Of a DNA stretch of 41,172 nucleotides, positions 3,286 through 25,980 are shown in pieces. Under the pieces are notes generated by a model. It was given only the letters and a program-made list of their open reading frames with translations, was not told the origin of the DNA and ran no database searches. The stretch spans positions 1-41,172 of IMG/VR virus record IMGVR_UViG_3300035703_000178. One strand, written 5' to 3'. This stretch comes from a virus. Within the stretch, counting starts at the first letter, position 1. Each line of letters starts with the position of its first letter. The position numbers and the translations under genes were made by a program.

Positions 3286-3799
3286 AGTAATAGCAGGAGG
3301 GGTTGCAAGACCAACGCCAGCAGATATAAGACTTGATAAGTCACTTATAAGCCCACATATTCAAGATGCAGAGTATCGTTGGATTGTTCCAGCCATTGGT
3401 TTGACTTTTTACGATGCCTTAGTGGCAGACAAAGGAAATTCAACCGCGTTTACATCAACCGCTTATCAAGAGTTATGGGATAATCAATTAAAATCCTTTT
3501 GCGCCAATGCCGTGTTATATGAGGCATCGCCTTACATGGTTATGCAACTTGGTACAAATGGCTTATATACTTTGGATAACGAATACGGGCAAAACGTGGG
3601 CGTTGATGGTTTGAAATTTTATCAAGATACCTTGTTGCAAAGGTTGGACGTTAAAAAGAAAAGGATTAAAGATTATTTATGTGCATCTGCTTTAGCATTC
3701 ACAGGCTTTGTTCCAAGTGCTATTGGTTGTCATGAGGCAACTTGCAATGAAGATGAAGAAATTACAGACATTTATAATACTTTAGGAATAGTTTTATAA
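3260..3799 (+). CDS. Head-tail connector (DUF6712-like)
   Basis: A 179-residue mostly helical protein whose gene overlaps the portal gene by 26 bases and touches the fibre gene at its stop codon (TAATG). It resembles the Bacteroidota phage family DUF6712, thought to be gp6-like head completion proteins that stack beneath the portal. Seen features are the opening with LDKSLISPHIQDAEYRWIVP and the helix KFYQDTLLQRLDVKKKRIKDYL. The assignment is by family resemblance and position directly downstream of the portal gene. Confidence 0.65.
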   Translation: MSQLIQPSEVIAGGVARPTPADIRLDKSLISPHIQDAEYRWIVPAIGLTFYDALVADKGNSTAFTSTAYQELWDNQLKSFCANAVLYEASPYMVMQLGTNGLYTLDNEYGQNVGVDGLKFYQDTLLQRLDVKKKRIKDYLCASALAFTGFVPSAIGCHEATCNEDEEITDIYNTLGIVL

Positions 3800-5763
3800 T
3801 GGAAAAAATAAAAAAAGAAAGGCGTTTTTTAAAAACGTTAGGGAAAGTAGGTGAGATTCTTATTCAGGAGGTTTTAATCAAAGTCGGGAGTAGTTTAATT
3901 AAGAGGATTGGAGGCAAAAAAAATATGCCTTCAATTCTTTTTTTATTCCTTTCGATTAACCTTTTTGCCCAGTACCCAAACACAGGAAACAAACAAAGGT
4001 TAGGTTACCAGACTACGGCTGACGGGTTGGTTTGGAGAGGTTCAATTTCAGATACTGCATCTATTCAACCTGTATCAAATCAAAACGCCTGGGTTATTCT
4101 TGACACCGGTAACCTAAAAATATACTCATTTGATTTTACTTCGAATGTTTGGAATCAAGTAGGTGGCGGTGCTTTTGCCCAACCCATAGATTCATTATTT
4201 TTTAAAACAAGTGTTTCGCCAAATAACGTGGACACGGCTAAAATGCGGTGGGATTATGAATTAGGTACAGTGGTTTTAGGTATGTATGACCAAGTGCCAA
4301 ATGAATTAGGGTTCAAAAACTTTTGGCTTGTAAAAAATCAAACAGGTTCAACTATTACTAAAAATAGCCTTGTTTATGCTTCAGGAACAGTTGGAACAAG
4401 TGGACGTATATCTGTATTAAAATTCATAGCTAACGGGACAATAGATGCTAAATATTTACTTGGTATTACGGCACATGATTTAAGTGACGGTGAAGACGGT
4501 TATGTTATTTCATTTGGCAAAATTAGGCAAGTTAACACAGATACCTTTGCGGCTGGGGCTATTCTTTATCCTTCGCCAACTACGGCTGGTGTTTGGACAG
4601 ACGTTGAGCCTGTTGCACCTAATATTGATATGCCTATCGGCTTTTGTATTAACTCTTCTTCAAATAATGGAACAATAGCCATTCGTTATGCTTCAGGATA
4701 TAAATTAAACGAGCTTCATGATTTGGCTGTTTCTTCACCAGTTGACAAGGCTTCCTTGTATTATTCTGGTGGTTTATGGAGAGATACAACTGCAGCAGTT
4801 TTAACAAGTGATACCTCTTCGATGCTTACAAATTACTTGCGTTCGGGTATTGCAGCTTTAACTTATTTACCATTGACTGGCGGAACTTTGACAGGTGCGT
4901 TAAATGGGACAACAGGAACATTTGCAGGCTTAAATGTTATAAATTCATCTACTGAAGGTGTTTTAACTTTACAAGGCGCTGATAATAACACAGCTGAAAG
5001 AATAAGATTTAATACAACAGGAAGTATAAGAAAAGAAATTGTTTTACCGTCAGCTACTTCAAACCTTGAATTTAGAACAAGCACTGTCGGTGGAACCGAA
5101 GGGGGTTATTCTTTTTATACAAGACGAAATCCAAATGCAGAACAATTAGCGTTTAATATAGATTATAATAGAGACATACAAATGTACGGGGCTTTGTCGG
5201 TAACAGGCGCAACGACATTGACTGGCGCACTCACCGTAAACAATGCTACTGTATTAAACGAAGGCTCAGGCGACTTTGACACAAGGATTGAAAGTGATGG
5301 AAATGCAAACATGGTTTTTGTAGATGCCTCAACAGACCGCGTGGGCATTGGAACAAATGCGCCTTCAAAGACGCTTGATATTGTTGGTACATTAGGTGTT
5401 TCAAGTACAGCAACATTTGCAGGTAACACAGTTATAGATGGCGGATTAAAAGGTAAAATAAAAAAAGAGTCAGGAACAGGTGGTTTTTTTAATCAAATAC
5501 CTTCAGATGTTATTACCTATATTTTTGAGTATACTGGAGTAACTACTGGTGGTGGGTCAACTGATTTTTTAGGAAGTCCAGCAAGTCACACAAATAGAAT
5601 TATAAATATAATTAATGTAAGTGATGTTGATTATTTTCTTGGATTTACAACAAATTTGCCTTATATTAAAACAAACACTACAATTACTCAATTAGACTAC
5701 GGAAAATCTATGACAGTACAATCTGATGGTAGTAAATGGTGGGTTATATCAAGAAATTTTTAA
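3799..5763 (+). CDS. Tail fibre / adhesin-like protein with internal signal peptide
   Basis: A 654-residue protein. Residues 1-42 are basic and amphipathic (KVGEILIQEVLIKVGSSL). Residues 43-59 (MPSILFLFLSINLFAQ) look like a complete signal peptide ending in the FAQ cleavage site common in Bacteroidota. The rest is beta-rich with fibre-type repeats: LTGGTLTGALNGTTGTFAG, VTGATTLTGALTVNN, and DRVGIGTNAPSKTLDIVG, which is common in phage fibres and adhesins. The likely role is host recognition. Two starts are possible: 3799, coupled to the previous stop, or ATG 3925, which would make a secreted protein. A fibre needs no signal peptide if it is assembled in the cytoplasm, so the domain may be host-derived. 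Confidence 0.65.
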   Translation: MEKIKKERRFLKTLGKVGEILIQEVLIKVGSSLIKRIGGKKNMPSILFLFLSINLFAQYPNTGNKQRLGYQTTADGLVWRGSISDTASIQPVSNQNAWVILDTGNLKIYSFDFTSNVWNQVGGGAFAQPIDSLFFKTSVSPNNVDTAKMRWDYELGTVVLGMYDQVPNELGFKNFWLVKNQTGSTITKNSLVYASGTVGTSGRISVLKFIANGTIDAKYLLGITAHDLSDGEDGYVISFGKIRQVNTDTFAAGAILYPSPTTAGVWTDVEPVAPNIDMPIGFCINSSSNNGTIAIRYASGYKLNELHDLAVSSPVDKASLYYSGGLWRDTTAAVLTSDTSSMLTNYLRSGIAALTYLPLTGGTLTGALNGTTGTFAGLNVINSSTEGVLTLQGADNNTAERIRFNTTGSIRKEIVLPSATSNLEFRTSTVGGTEGGYSFYTRRNPNAEQLAFNIDYNRDIQMYGALSVTGATTLTGALTVNNATVLNEGSGDFDTRIESDGNANMVFVDASTDRVGIGTNAPSKTLDIVGTLGVSSTATFAGNTVIDGGLKGKIKKESGTGGFFNQIPSDVITYIFEYTGVTTGGGSTDFLGSPASHTNRIINIINVSDVDYFLGFTTNLPYIKTNTTITQLDYGKSMTVQSDGSKWWVISRNF

Positions 5764-5775
5764 AAAAAACTAAAC

Positions 5776-6369
5776 ATGAAAAAAATATTAATCCTTTTGT
5801 CCTTATTTCCTTCCTTTGCTTTGGCACAGGATACTGTTATTATTACAAAGGTTTTTTCCGATGATACATTATGGAGTGTAAAAAAAGTATATGCAAATCA
5901 AGATGTGCAAATTAAATTGTTTGAAGATTCGTCTGCTATTTATTATTACATCTTGAATGACATTGTAGATGAGGCCAGGAAAATGACAGATGCTTTTAAC
6001 ATTTACGAAAACCGTAACAAGTTTTTAAATTCTTTGTATAAACTTGACAAAAGCATGGTTAACGGTAAAGTTGAAAGTAGTTTTACATACCTTTCTAATT
6101 TATACGCTTCATTTTGGATAGGCAATTACAATGCCGTTGCCAATGGAACAAAGGTTCTTGCTGGGGCTGAAATATTTTTTAACAAGAATAATGAGTTAAG
6201 AATTAAAATTGGCGAAAGTATTAATAAGCCATTTATTGCCGTTGCAGATACTTATGGCATCATTGCAAATTATCCAAATACTGGATATAGATTTGTTATG
6301 TATAAAACAAATGAAAAGTCGTTTAAGGACTTGGATAATAAATTAATCCTTAAAAAATTAAAACAATGA
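5776..6369 (+). CDS. Secreted/periplasmic protein of unknown function
   Basis: A 197-residue protein with a clear signal peptide: MKK, hydrophobic ILILLSLFPSFA, and LAQ as a probable cleavage site at residue 18. The mature part is charged and mixed alpha/beta, with no cysteines for a lipoprotein anchor. It ends in an ATGA overlap with the holin gene, so it belongs to the lysis end of the late operon. Possible roles are a periplasmic lysis helper, superinfection exclusion or surface change; none has motif support. It is the second signal-peptide-bearing product in a row here. Confidence 0.6.
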   Translation: MKKILILLSLFPSFALAQDTVIITKVFSDDTLWSVKKVYANQDVQIKLFEDSSAIYYYILNDIVDEARKMTDAFNIYENRNKFLNSLYKLDKSMVNGKVESSFTYLSNLYASFWIGNYNAVANGTKVLAGAEIFFNKNNELRIKIGESINKPFIAVADTYGIIANYPNTGYRFVMYKTNEKSFKDLDNKLILKKLKQ

Positions 6370-6770
6370 AAGCAATAATATTAAATATTTTAAAACTTGG
6401 CTATGATGGCATCGCTTTTGCGGTGTGTTGCGGCTTTGTTGCATCGTTTTTTATACCAATCAAGGGCTTCCTTTTGTTTACAGTGTTCGTTGTTTTTGCT
6501 GATACCGTTACAGGAATCTTGGCGGCAAACAAAAGAGGCGAAAGGATAACAAGCAAAGGATTATATCGTACATCGCAGAAAGTAGTTGTTTACTTTGTTG
6601 GCATTATGATTTTTGAGGGTGCAAGAAATACTTTTTCATTACCTTTAAACATTACATACATGGTTGCCTTTACGATTGCCACAACTGAACTTTATAGCAT
6701 TGCAGAAAATATAAAGTCGATGACTGGTGTAAATATTGGAACATTAATTTTAAGATTTTTTAGACGTTAA
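6366..6770 (+). CDS. Holin (phage holin family 4 type)
   Basis: A 134-residue inner membrane protein expected to form holes that release the endolysin. Hydrophobic segments lie at about residues 14-30, 33-53, 73-88 and 94-112. The second ends in FADTVTGILAANKRGE, the acidic-residue plus TG motif characteristic of the toxin secretion/phage lysis holin family (PF05105). The C-terminus is basic (RFFRR). The start ATG overlaps the stop of the preceding gene (ATGA). The amidase lies 0.4 kb downstream, completing a lysis cassette. Confidence 0.8.
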   Translation: MKAIILNILKLGYDGIAFAVCCGFVASFFIPIKGFLLFTVFVVFADTVTGILAANKRGERITSKGLYRTSQKVVVYFVGIMIFEGARNTFSLPLNITYMVAFTIATTELYSIAENIKSMTGVNIGTLILRFFRR

Positions 6771-18208: not shown

Positions 18209-19180
18209 TTATTGTGTTTGATATTTCTTCATCTTTTCAGCAAGTAACCTGTCAACTTCATCATCATACGCTTTTTTCTTTGCCGCTGGGCTGGAAGTCT
18301 GGTAAGCCGTGTATATCTTCCCAGCCTGTCCGTACAATGTCGCTGGGTTAAAGTTAGCCTTAATCCACTTATCGTTCAAGTCCCATGCCGCTTGTAAAAA
18401 TACTTTTAATGCCGTAATGTTATCATTATTCCTATCAACTTTTTCAATCCAACGTAAAAGGTAAACCATGCCTCCAGCATCTTTGGGACTCATGATATAA
18501 TTGCCCTTTTGATCCGTGGGATACGCCGCACCAGATAACTGTTCAAATGTTTGGCAGAACACCGTGAAGGCTTCGTACGTCGGGTTGGGCTTCCGCTCGG
18601 GTTTCGGGGAGCTTTCTTTTTCTTTTTTACCCGAAGTTTTTTCTTTTTCTTTTTGACTTTGCAAATTAGCAACAACGCTAAATGGGTTTACTTTGCTACT
18701 TTGCTTTTCATCAATTGTAATTGTTTCAAACTTCGAAAATTCCGAAGGATTTTCAAAAAAATTATCTTCTTGTAAGTTGATATTCTTTATTATTTGTTCT
18801 TCTTTAAACTTGTTCTTCTTAAGTGAAGGATTTTTCCGTGACGGAAATTCACCGTGTCGGGTTTTTTCCGATACGGTTAAATCTGGATTTGGTATGAAAT
18901 CTATAACATAATCATAACTATCAAATCTCCCTAATTCGCTTCGTTTTTGTGTTCTTTTCAAATATCCTGTTGAGACTAATTCATCAAGGTATTTCCTTAA
19001 AGTGTCTTTAGAATACCCTAAATCTTTAGCCATTTTTGATTGGTAAAATTGCCAGTCTTCAGACATTGATGACATATAGCAATATAAAAATCTCGCTCTA
19101 TCAGAAATATTTGAATTTCTTATCAAGTCATTAGGTATTTGAGTAAAAAACTTCTTTGTTTTATTTGTTACTTTATTCAT
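18209..19180 (-). CDS. Replication initiator-like winged-helix protein
   Basis: A 323-residue protein. Residues 10-95 form a winged helix of the HTH_36 kind (FTQIPNDLIRNSNISDRARFLYCYMSSM, then FYQSKMAKDLGYSKDTLRKYLDELVSTGYLKR), typical of phage and plasmid replication proteins. A charged low-complexity linker (about 150-205, rich in K, E and S) leads to a C-terminal helical domain (AFTVFCQTFEQL to the end) that may load the host helicase. It lies second in an operon that begins at the likely origin region. The start overlaps the upstream stop (ATGA). No polymerase or helicase is encoded by this phage, so the initiator is the main replication gene. Confidence 0.65.
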   Translation of the reverse strand: MNKVTNKTKKFFTQIPNDLIRNSNISDRARFLYCYMSSMSEDWQFYQSKMAKDLGYSKDTLRKYLDELVSTGYLKRTQKRSELGRFDSYDYVIDFIPNPDLTVSEKTRHGEFPSRKNPSLKKNKFKEEQIIKNINLQEDNFFENPSEFSKFETITIDEKQSSKVNPFSVVANLQSQKEKEKTSGKKEKESSPKPERKPNPTYEAFTVFCQTFEQLSGAAYPTDQKGNYIMSPKDAGGMVYLLRWIEKVDRNNDNITALKVFLQAAWDLNDKWIKANFNPATLYGQAGKIYTAYQTSSPAAKKKAYDDEVDRLLAEKMKKYQTQ

Positions 19181-19458
19181 AATTTCTCTATAATTTTTGA
19201 ATTGATTAAATAAGTATTTGATTTTTGACCTCCATATCTTTCATCATAAGAAAAATTTACTTTTAATAAATCTTTTTCCTTTAATTCGTTTTTTACCCTC
19301 AGTAATTTTGATTCTCCAAAGCCTGTAATTTTACTTAGGTCAGCATTACTTATACTTGCTTCGCGCTTGTGATTCATGTAATTTGCCAAATGACATAACA
19401 AATAAAACTGGTCAGCAGTTAAGCCTTTTTCAAGTTCTAAATTTAATCTTAATTCCAT
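19177..19458 (-). CDS. Winged-helix DNA-binding protein, first early gene
   Basis: A 93-residue protein that is one winged-helix domain: MELRLNLELEKGLTADQFYLLCHLANYM, ISNADLSKITGFGESKLLRVKNELKEKDLLKV, then the wing (FSYDERYGGQKSNTYLI). It is related in style to the first domain of the next protein and could be a regulator, or a replication partner acting at the nearby origin. The start codon lies 17 bases after the terminator-like hairpin at 19465-19500, so it can be expressed only if transcription passes that hairpin. Its stop overlaps the next start. Confidence 0.65.
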   Translation of the reverse strand: MELRLNLELEKGLTADQFYLLCHLANYMNHKREASISNADLSKITGFGESKLLRVKNELKEKDLLKVNFSYDERYGGQKSNTYLINSKIIEKL

Positions 19459-19464
19459 TTTTTT

Positions 19465-19500
19465 AAAATAAAAAAGCCAATGAGTAGGAGTTCATTGGCT
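19465..19500 (-). terminator. Terminator/attenuator hairpin in the early leader (H3)
   Basis: Minus strand AGCCAATGA and TCATTGGCT form a perfect 9-bp stem with loop ACTCCTAC, followed by TTTTTATTTT. It has the form of an intrinsic terminator but sits in front of, not behind, a gene: the first early start codon is 7 bases past the U-tract. The loop complements the H1 loop (19543-19552) over 7 bases. Confidence 0.75.
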
Positions 19501-19565
19501 AAGTGAAACAATGCGGAAATTGTCTCAAAACTCTTTTGAATCGCTCCTACCTGATTCAAAAGAAC
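19465..19565 (-). ncRNA. Structured leader or small RNA with kissing-loop hairpins
   Basis: From a predicted start near 19565 the RNA would open at once with hairpin H1: TCTTTTGAATC (19563-19553) pairs perfectly over 11 bp with GATTCAAAAGA (19542-19532) around loop AGGTAGGAGC. A weak hairpin H2 (ACAAT/ATTGT, 19508-19523) follows, then terminator hairpin H3 with loop ACTCCTAC. GTAGGAG in H1 and CUCCUAC in H3 are exact complements, so the loops can kiss in one molecule or between two. The RNA would be about 100 nt if it ends at H3, or the leader of the early operon if transcription passes it. Pairing is seen in the sequence; the function is inferred. Confidence 0.6.
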
Positions 19566-19569
19566 ATTG

Positions 19570-19602
19570 CAAATATACTAAATATTTTTTACATTTTACA
19601 AA
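19570..19602 (-). promoter_or_regulatory. Bacteroidota-type promoter for the early leader
   Basis: Minus strand TTTG (19602-19599), 21 bases, TATATTTG (19577-19570): both boxes match the Bacteroidota sigma consensus (-33 TTTG, -7 TAnnTTTG) at the usual distance. The start point should fall around 19565, at the base of hairpin H1. Confidence 0.75.
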
Positions 19603-24673: not shown

Positions 24674-24862
24674 ATGATAGACATTGAATTAATGGACGAA
24701 TTTTCTATATGGATTCGCGATAATCATTGGAAACAATGTGTTTTTGATAATTATTCACCTATTGTGGATAATTTAGCAAAATGGTATAACGAAGATTTTA
24801 GAAATAGAACTTATTTATTTTCAGAACTTTATCAAATGTTTTTAGAAAGCAAGAAGGCATGA
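24674..24862 (+). CDS. Small acidic protein
   Basis: A 62-residue acidic protein rich in aromatic residues (IELMDEFSIWIRDNHWKQCVFDNYSP, LFSELYQMFLESKKA). No family is recognised. It overlaps the ParB-methyltransferase by 4 bases (ATGA). Small acidic phage proteins beside methyltransferases can be DNA mimics, but nothing specific supports that here. Confidence 0.5.
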   Translation: MIDIELMDEFSIWIRDNHWKQCVFDNYSPIVDNLAKWYNEDFRNRTYLFSELYQMFLESKKA

Positions 24863-25980
24863 TAATCGAGAAAAAGAAAATATCTGATTTAATTCCAGCA
24901 CCGTATAACCCAAGACAAAGTACGGCAAAGCAAGAGCAACACTTAAAGGAAAGCCTTGAAAAGTTTGGCTTGGTTGAACCGATTATATTTAATAAACAAA
25001 CGGGATACATCGTCGGCGGTCATTTCCGTGTCCGTGAACTTAAGAAGCTGGGAATCAAAGAGGTGGAATGCGTTATCGTTGACTTGAACGATGCAGACGA
25101 AAAGGAGTTGAACATAAGGCTCAATGCAAACACGGGCGGCTGGGATTGGGACACTTTGGCGAACGACTGGGAGGCTGGGGACTTAGAAGCGTGGGGCTTG
25201 GAGATACCGCAGTTTGACACGGTGGAGGAGTTGGAAGCGGAAGAGGACGATTATGAAGTACCTGAGGGAGGCATTGAAACAGACATTGTTATTGGTGACT
25301 TTTTTGAGATTGGGGAACATCGTTTGCTTTGTGGGGATAGTACGGATAGCGACCAAGTGCAACGGTTGATGAACGGGGAAAAGGCGGACATTTGTTTAAG
25401 TGACCCACCTTACGGAATTTCTGCAATAGAAAAAAATTCAAGGATGAAACAGTTAGGATGGGAGCAATATGAAAATGATGGAGATATTAATACAGCCGTT
25501 GATGCTTTTAATTTAGCATTTTCAATATGCGATAAATTAGTTTTTTGGGGTGCTAATCATTATGCAAATAAATTGCCAAATGTTGGCGGTTGGTTAATAT
25601 GGGATAAACAAGATGGGAAAGATACGACCACTTATTCAATGGGCGAATTAGCTTGGACAAATATTTTAAATAATGTACAAATCTTTAAACACATTTGGGA
25701 TGGTTTTAGAAAAGATAGTGAAAAGGGGGAAGCAAGATTACACCCAAGTCAAAAGCCTGTTAAATTGCACGAATGGGTTTTAAATAAAATAGATGCAAAT
25801 TTAGTACTTGATTTATTCTTAGGCAGCGGTTCAACAATGGTAGCAGCGCACCAACTTAAACGCAAGTGTTATGGCATGGAGTTAAACTCTAAATACTGCC
25901 AAGTCATAATTGACAGAATGCGCAAACTTGATTCATCATTGATTATTAAGCGTAATGGCATTGAGTTAAAACAGGCATAA
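24859..25980 (+). CDS. ParB-domain/DNA methyltransferase fusion
   Basis: A 373-residue protein of two parts. Residues 1-120 are a ParB-like domain (ISDLIPAPYNPRQ, IVGGHFRVRELKKLG at 51-65). Residues 140-370 are a beta-class DNA methyltransferase: DPPYG at 182-186, then the target region, HPSQKPVKLHEWVL at 295-308 and LDLFLGSGSTMVAA at 317-330 (SAM binding; order DPPY before FxGxG). It should methylate adenine N6 or cytosine N4. The fusion is well known in phages. No restriction partner is present, so protection of phage DNA from host enzymes is likely. It ends the cassette just before TerS. Confidence 0.88.
   Translation: MIIEKKKISDLIPAPYNPRQSTAKQEQHLKESLEKFGLVEPIIFNKQTGYIVGGHFRVRELKKLGIKEVECVIVDLNDADEKELNIRLNANTGGWDWDTLANDWEAGDLEAWGLEIPQFDTVEELEAEEDDYEVPEGGIETDIVIGDFFEIGEHRLLCGDSTDSDQVQRLMNGEKADICLSDPPYGISAIEKNSRMKQLGWEQYENDGDINTAVDAFNLAFSICDKLVFWGANHYANKLPNVGGWLIWDKQDGKDTTTYSMGELAWTNILNNVQIFKHIWDGFRKDSEKGEARLHPSQKPVKLHEWVLNKIDANLVLDLFLGSGSTMVAAHQLKRKCYGMELNSKYCQVIIDRMRKLDSSLIIKRNGIELKQA

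Follow-up and report, generated by a model that had tools for sequence, protein, structure and literature searches.

A Structured Early-Leader RNA with Covarying Kissing Loops and a Putative Role in Early Transcription Control in an Uncultured Tailed Phage and Its Relatives

Introduction

Why would a phage place a transcription terminator directly in front of its first early gene, and why would the loop of this terminator be the exact complement of the loop of a hairpin that opens the same RNA? The question is raised by a locus in a 41,172-nucleotide stretch of viral DNA (IMG/VR virus record IMGVR_UViG_3300035703_000178), which at its full length is called the window here. The window belongs to an uncultured tailed phage with genes for terminase, portal and head protease, and the locus lies on its minus strand, where the early genes (minus strand) and the late genes (plus strand) diverge.

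Results and Discussion

Promoter, Hairpins and Early Genes in the Window

Promoters of Bacteroidota (sigma-ABfr) have the consensus TAnnTTTG at -7 and TTTG at -33 (PMC7366714). The window has both elements at 19570-19602 (minus strand), with TTTG at 19602-19599, a spacer of 21 nt and the -7 box TATATTTG at 19577-19570. The first hairpin, H1, begins within 6-7 nt of this box, and in 57 of 57 relatives a -7 box TAnnTTT[G/A] ends 4-6 nt upstream of H1; because of this short distance, transcription is expected to begin on the first bases of H1, which in the window would be at about position 19564. Judged from the promoter type only, the host of this phage group is probably a member of Bacteroidota.

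H1 (19532-19563, minus strand) has a perfect stem of 11 bp (TCTTTTGAATC/GATTCAAAAGA), supported by sequence, folding and covariation, and a loop of 10 nt with the layout 2+7+1, in which the seven-letter kissing code GTAGGAG occupies 19550-19544. The spacer hairpin H2 (19504-19527, minus strand; TGAGACAAT-TTCCGC-ATTGTTTCA) has 9 bp with one G-U, and the terminator hairpin H3 (19475-19500, minus strand) has a perfect stem of 9 bp (AGCCAATGA/TCATTGGCT; sequence and covariation) and a loop of 8 nt with the layout 1+7(+0), which holds the anti-code CTCCTAC at 19490-19484. The U-tract of the intrinsic terminator, TTTTTATTTT, follows directly 3' of H3 (19465-19474, minus strand). Code and anti-code are exact 7-nt complements about 60 nt apart, and each occurs once in the window (read on the plus strand), in these two loops only. 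The original prediction had named the promoter, the two perfect stems and the complementary loops, all of which sequence and folding bear out on the minus strand; H2 had been called weak, and it is indeed the weaker hairpin, yet a real one.

The folding z-score of the leader, computed on the plus strand, is -5.0, and none of 200 shuffles folds as well; the minus-strand fold gives the identical three hairpins. For a 10-nt and an 8-nt loop of random sequence, the chance of seven complementary bases is 1/2048 at equal base frequencies, in agreement with the 1 in 2000 estimated beforehand, and 7e-4 at the composition of the window. Since the loops of relatives remain complementary in spite of different letters (see below), the match goes beyond such single-sequence estimates. 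A short CAUUG/CAAUG match between H2 and H3 is also present in the window; a classic attenuator with this alternative stem seems less likely, as the match was not seen in the few relatives read by eye.

The first early gene (19177-19458, minus strand) encodes a replication-initiation-like HTH_36 protein of 93 aa, with its ATG 16 nt past the H3 stem, and the second (18209-19180, minus strand) an HTH replication initiation protein of 323 aa. This arrangement supports the earlier proposal of a leader RNA with a terminator 5' of the first early gene, and of the two outcomes offered with it, attenuation of the early operon or a separate 100-nt RNA, the former is likelier, because the start codon stands directly past H3 with no promoter in between.

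On the 5' side of the leader there are stretches that resemble tRNAs, end alike (GCAAGG...CCCTTGC) and in some cases have a long central part; they lie at 19757-19643 (minus strand) of the window, at about 3747-3891 of locus L006, 4134-4231 of L012 and 835-1080 of L014. The copy in the window was not called by ARAGORN; true tRNA-Tyr genes with ends of this type are present in L002 and L003, and tRNA-Tyr calls were also obtained in L008 and L111.

Relatives of the Leader and Its Novelty

Scans of IMG/VR gave about 55 distinct relatives of the leader. Loci L002-L014 were found when the proteins of the two early genes were scanned against IMG/VR, and wherever these loci include the upstream region, its layout is identical and the loop letters differ (CTGGACA/TGTCCAG, GTGAAGG/CCTTCAC, GTAGCAG/CTGCTAC, GTGGAAG/CTTCCAC and GTGGTAG/CTACCAC). 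Dozens more came from scans of DNA patterns for H1, H2 and variant stems of H1. When 50 whole records were searched with model R2, nearly all had one or two true copies, one had only a copy cut by the contig end, and the weak extra matches were mostly the opposite strand of true copies. It had been suggested that the AGGAG in the H1 loop could meet 16S rRNA; the corresponding loops of relatives read GTGAAGG, GCACTAC, CTGGACA and others, and this pairing was rejected because the loop letters are not conserved.

Rfam 15 gave no match at the gathering threshold and, with 401 bases at E<=10, only sub-threshold ones. Cultured phages showed no match at the DNA level and only distant ones at the protein level, the H1 pattern found only non-members in GTDB genomes, and in the open-access literature we found no kissing-loop phage leader or terminator element of such kind. 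The earlier statement that no comparable phage element was known from Bacteroidota is in line with the lack of an Rfam match and of a cultured-phage DNA match. A small-molecule riboswitch was rejected, as there is neither an Rfam match nor an invariant unpaired core. We consider the leader a new and well-supported structured RNA element, with a putative role in early transcription control.

Covariation of the Two Loops

The pairing of the loops was followed in three tests in which complementarity was no part of the selection: a covariance model (R1), a scan seeded with the H2 sequence and a loop-blind descriptor. R1 contained no kissing pairs and, as its structure string was one column off, worked mostly as a sequence model; it found 15 additional, weaker copies whose H1 stems differ, every one of them with a fully complementary pair of 7-nt loop segments, and seven of the codes were new. 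In the H2-seeded scan 24 of 24 true members were paired, as against none of five chance matches in unrelated sequence. The descriptor consisted of the -7 box, H1, H3 and the U-tract, without any condition on the loop sequence, and was run on loci gathered by the earlier searches; 55 of its 56 distinct matches have 7/7 Watson-Crick loop-loop pairs, while in the 56th (L013), a true member, the descriptor slipped out of register, and the loops pair once the register is corrected. The best-paired register per 12-base bin was taken here, a choice that alone cannot yield 7/7 at the observed rate.

In alignment A2 two-sided changes are present at all seven kissing pairs, 98.8% of the kissing cells are paired and none of 500 shuffles reaches the observed scores; when the partners are slid by 1-3 columns, pairing drops from 94% to 39-50%. 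There are 16 distinct 7-nt codes, with a nearly constant kiss strength of -7 to -11 kcal/mol. Members found without a loop condition have no G-U pair in the kiss, whereas 9% of the pairs in the nested stems are G-U (in members found by the exact-complement scanner, G-U in the kiss was excluded by construction). The two complementary loops and their covariation are what characterizes a loop-loop kissing RNA. Relatives thus conserve the stems together with the loop complementarity, the opposite of what was named beforehand as refutation, and this speaks for a functional loop-loop pairing. From these comparisons, the pairing is real and far beyond chance, and the leader is almost certainly a structured RNA.

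The stems are also inverted repeats near a promoter, which would suit operators acting at the DNA level. Such a reading, or plain chance, is very improbable and already contradicted: the loop letters co-change at a distance in the 16 codes, the H1 and H3 stems covary separately from them, the loop layouts of 2+7+1 and 1+7 are fixed, the U-tract is always on one strand, and the descriptor has 136 matches in real sequence compared with 5 in 1.7 Mb of shuffled sequence.

Shared Anatomy and the Genes behind the Leader

In all 47 distinct elements folded (minimum-energy fold, codes held unpaired) there are three separate hairpins, with stems of 10-13 bp (H1), 5-9 bp (H2) and 9-11 bp (H3) and linkers of 2-6 nt and 1-5 nt. 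The H2 sequence is swapped in some relatives with the hairpin kept, so that several unrelated H2 sequences occur. Among the measurable members, 54 of 54 have T at 6-8 of the 8 positions that follow H3 and a start codon 13-30 nt 3' of H3, and none of the 54 has a -7 promoter box between the two. Since the start codon adjoins H3 and no promoter intervenes, the downstream genes can be transcribed from the leader promoter only through H3.

This proximity also bears on the possibility that the product is a free and stable noncoding RNA of about 100 nt, in which the kiss makes a nuclease-resistant body and the gene behind is reached by leak-through only. Such an RNA would be self-contained, its 5' end locked in H1 (with the start expected on its first base) and its 3' end in H3, with both terminal hairpins strong and the U-tracts good; but start codons always follow at 13-30 nt, in front of many gene families, which fits a leader better, and the variable codes leave no fixed base-pairing target. 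We regard the free RNA as a minor possibility.

Many families are represented among the downstream genes, such as HTH replication types, HNH-like genes and ParB-like DNA methyltransferases; one code is found before different genes and different codes before one gene. Because codes and downstream genes combine so freely, the leader appears to be a portable promoter-attenuator cassette. A family of proteins of about 160 aa starting with MAKEIQLTQGKVAIVDD, HNH/AP2-like by eye, is often the first gene behind the leader; it stands directly past H3 in L005, L006, L008, L010, L068, L131 and others, and is possibly a cargo that swaps at the leader site. A ParB-like domain fused to a DNA methyltransferase is encoded at 24859-25980 (plus strand) of the window and at 4613-6506 (minus strand) of L216, where the gene sits behind the first leader and is followed by a gene for 191 aa, which might, as a guess, be a restriction enzyme.

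The H1 stem CTTTTGA/TCAAAAG is kept in most members, in part because most of them were found through it. Together with the constant order of the three hairpins, this retention of one stem where other pairs would do could indicate that a phage or host factor, or RNA polymerase itself as with the put RNA of HK022, recognises the leader for antitermination, with the kiss only holding the fold. We find this improbable, since the H1 stems CTTTAAATT, CCTTTTGC and CCTTTGGA and the several unrelated H2 sequences occur as well and there is no sign of a binding factor.

Proposed Attenuation in Cis

With moderate confidence, we favor the leader as a cis-acting attenuator of early transcription in which the loop of H3 is captured by H1. 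What this starts from is seen in the sequence: a promoter motif, three hairpins, a U-tract, an adjoining start codon and, by covariation, the kiss. To hypothesize, RNA polymerase would start at the first base of H1, after which H1 and H2 would fold; as the H3 loop leaves the polymerase, it would form seven Watson-Crick pairs with the H1 loop of the same transcript, and this kiss would alter the speed or completeness with which the H3 stem closes at the U-tract. In such a way it would set what fraction of the polymerases continues into the early genes, with the others stopping and releasing an RNA of about 100 nt.

We infer that the pairing takes place within one molecule and acts on termination, because the partner is only 60 nt away, there is no sign of other targets and the genes behind need readthrough. 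As to its sign, the kiss would most likely lower termination and thus serve as a built-in antiterminator; this is suggested by the genes behind, replication initiators in many members, which need expression, and by the lack of any other known antiterminator pairing in these leaders. Otherwise, the replication initiators would stand behind an always-closed terminator.

The geometry of a contact in cis is tight. By a crude A-form rod estimate, the linker barely covers, or slightly misses, the distance between fully closed stems (the median slack is -1 angstrom with a 45-degree bend and -7 without it), so either the kiss would compete with full closure of the stems in cis, for which some end pairs would have to open, or pairing between molecules would be favored. 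Linker length does not track rod length (the correlation is weakly negative), and this relation was dropped as a proof of cis pairing.

In the repC leader of pT181, the leader hairpin is kissed by an antisense RNA that is transcribed separately from the opposite strand, and an antiterminator segment pairs with the stem of the terminator (PMC4878617, PMC3753616). Both systems have the leader of a replication gene with a 5' sensing hairpin and an intrinsic terminator in the 5' UTR before the gene, and in both the recognition is by kissing loops whose letters set specificity; they differ in the partner, which is a separate antisense RNA in pT181 and the terminator's own loop, on the same transcript, here. 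By eye, no T-run as for a pT181-type antisense gene, which has a promoter and terminator of its own, was seen behind H1 on the plus strand of the window, and no recurring stem-stem alternative like the pT181 antiterminator in a few members. We see the pT181 attenuator as the nearest functional relative in the literature consulted and claim no membership.

The put RNA of HK022, a pair of hairpins which makes RNA polymerase ignore distant terminators, is not known for loop-loop pairing to a terminator. It resembles the present leader in having hairpins right after an early phage promoter and a tie to terminator readthrough, but put acts on the polymerase, while here there is no evidence of a persistent modification of it. 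In the purine riboswitch, the L2-L3 contact is likewise an intramolecular kiss in a leader that controls a terminator; the present leader has no three-way junction and no P1, the terminator hairpin itself takes part in the kiss and the letters vary freely. ColE1 RNAI/RNAII and other 7-bp kissing complexes share the 7-bp loop-loop helix, the variable letters and the fixed geometry; RNAI and RNAII are two RNAs from opposite strands, whereas both loops lie on one strand here.

Complementary loops could in principle also link molecules into rings, as in a pRNA-like multimer for DNA packaging. This is extremely improbable for an RNA that is the leader of early genes, that occurs in many phages as two copies of different code and that belongs to a phage with an ordinary terminase large subunit; moreover, neither a dimer of the phi29 pRNA kind nor a put-like action accounts for the partner loop being the terminator's own.

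Change of the Codes and Phages with Two Leaders

The codes seem to have diversified more than a purely structural contact in cis would need, and this brings in a system of specificity in trans, in which the terminated RNA from one copy would kiss the leader of another copy (H1 with H3), with feedback on early gene dose or exclusion of a co-infecting phage of the same code as the result, in the manner of plasmid incompatibility RNAs or the P4 and P1 immunity RNAs; codes would then diversify because matching codes interfere. Two close relatives, L181 and L139, fit such a view. Their downstream gene is 96-97% identical and their upstream bases about 95%, and the changes in the 92-nt RNA are concentrated in the code: two compensatory code swaps, one compensatory swap of the closing pair of H3 and one T. 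Furthermore, the tree of their downstream gene, though weakly supported, shows at least three switches between the codes GTGAAGG and GTGCAAG, and taut geometry in cis would favor intermolecular pairing. On the other hand, a partner in cis is always within reach and should prevail, and exchange of codes by recombination would give a similar pattern; the changes could come from selection for new codes or from recombination of whole cassettes. Members with the code GTAGGAG share the H1 and H3 surroundings of the code but differ in H2, in whose place unrelated hairpins stand.

Some phages carry two copies of the leader, and such records always showed two different codes, as the trans view would expect, but the avoidance of equal codes within one genome is not significant (P = 0.18). 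The mean cross-pairing energy of the two codes has P = 0.035 when pooled and 0.26 with positions kept, so that orthogonality of two codes per genome is suggestive and not significant. Codes occur elsewhere in their own contigs 35 times against 40.5 expected, with no enrichment over other codes, and for this reason there is no sign of another target in the genome. All together, we consider regulation in trans unlikely, though worth keeping beside the cis attenuator that we prefer.

The P4 CI and P1 c4 RNAs belong to temperate phages or satellites, where they act in trans. They are comparable as short phage RNAs from the leader of the controlled operon, complementary to a site in this leader; the differences are that here the complement lies in the loop of the terminator and that no integrase was found. 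Neither a tyrosine integrase (PF00589) nor a resolvase (PF00239) was present in 21 records, many of them fragments, which makes lysogenic immunity less likely. If the codes do act in trans, phages without sign of lysogeny would here possess an incompatibility system based on RNA.

A broader picture, which we offer tentatively, is a family of lock-and-key attenuators: cassettes of promoter, H1, H2 and terminator, with key and lock co-changing under selection and codes orthogonal between phages and between the two operons of one phage, which would set early expression and mark self versus competitor in co-infection. In any case the covariation in this family of structured RNAs is unusually clean, and its 16 natural loop codes, many on one scaffold, offer a test bed for how a kiss affects termination; orthogonal RNA attenuators for Bacteroidota might also be drawn from them. 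An example of two leaders in close vicinity is L211 (the record of L114), where GCACTAC and GTGCAAG flank one short gene at a distance of only about 600 bases from each other.
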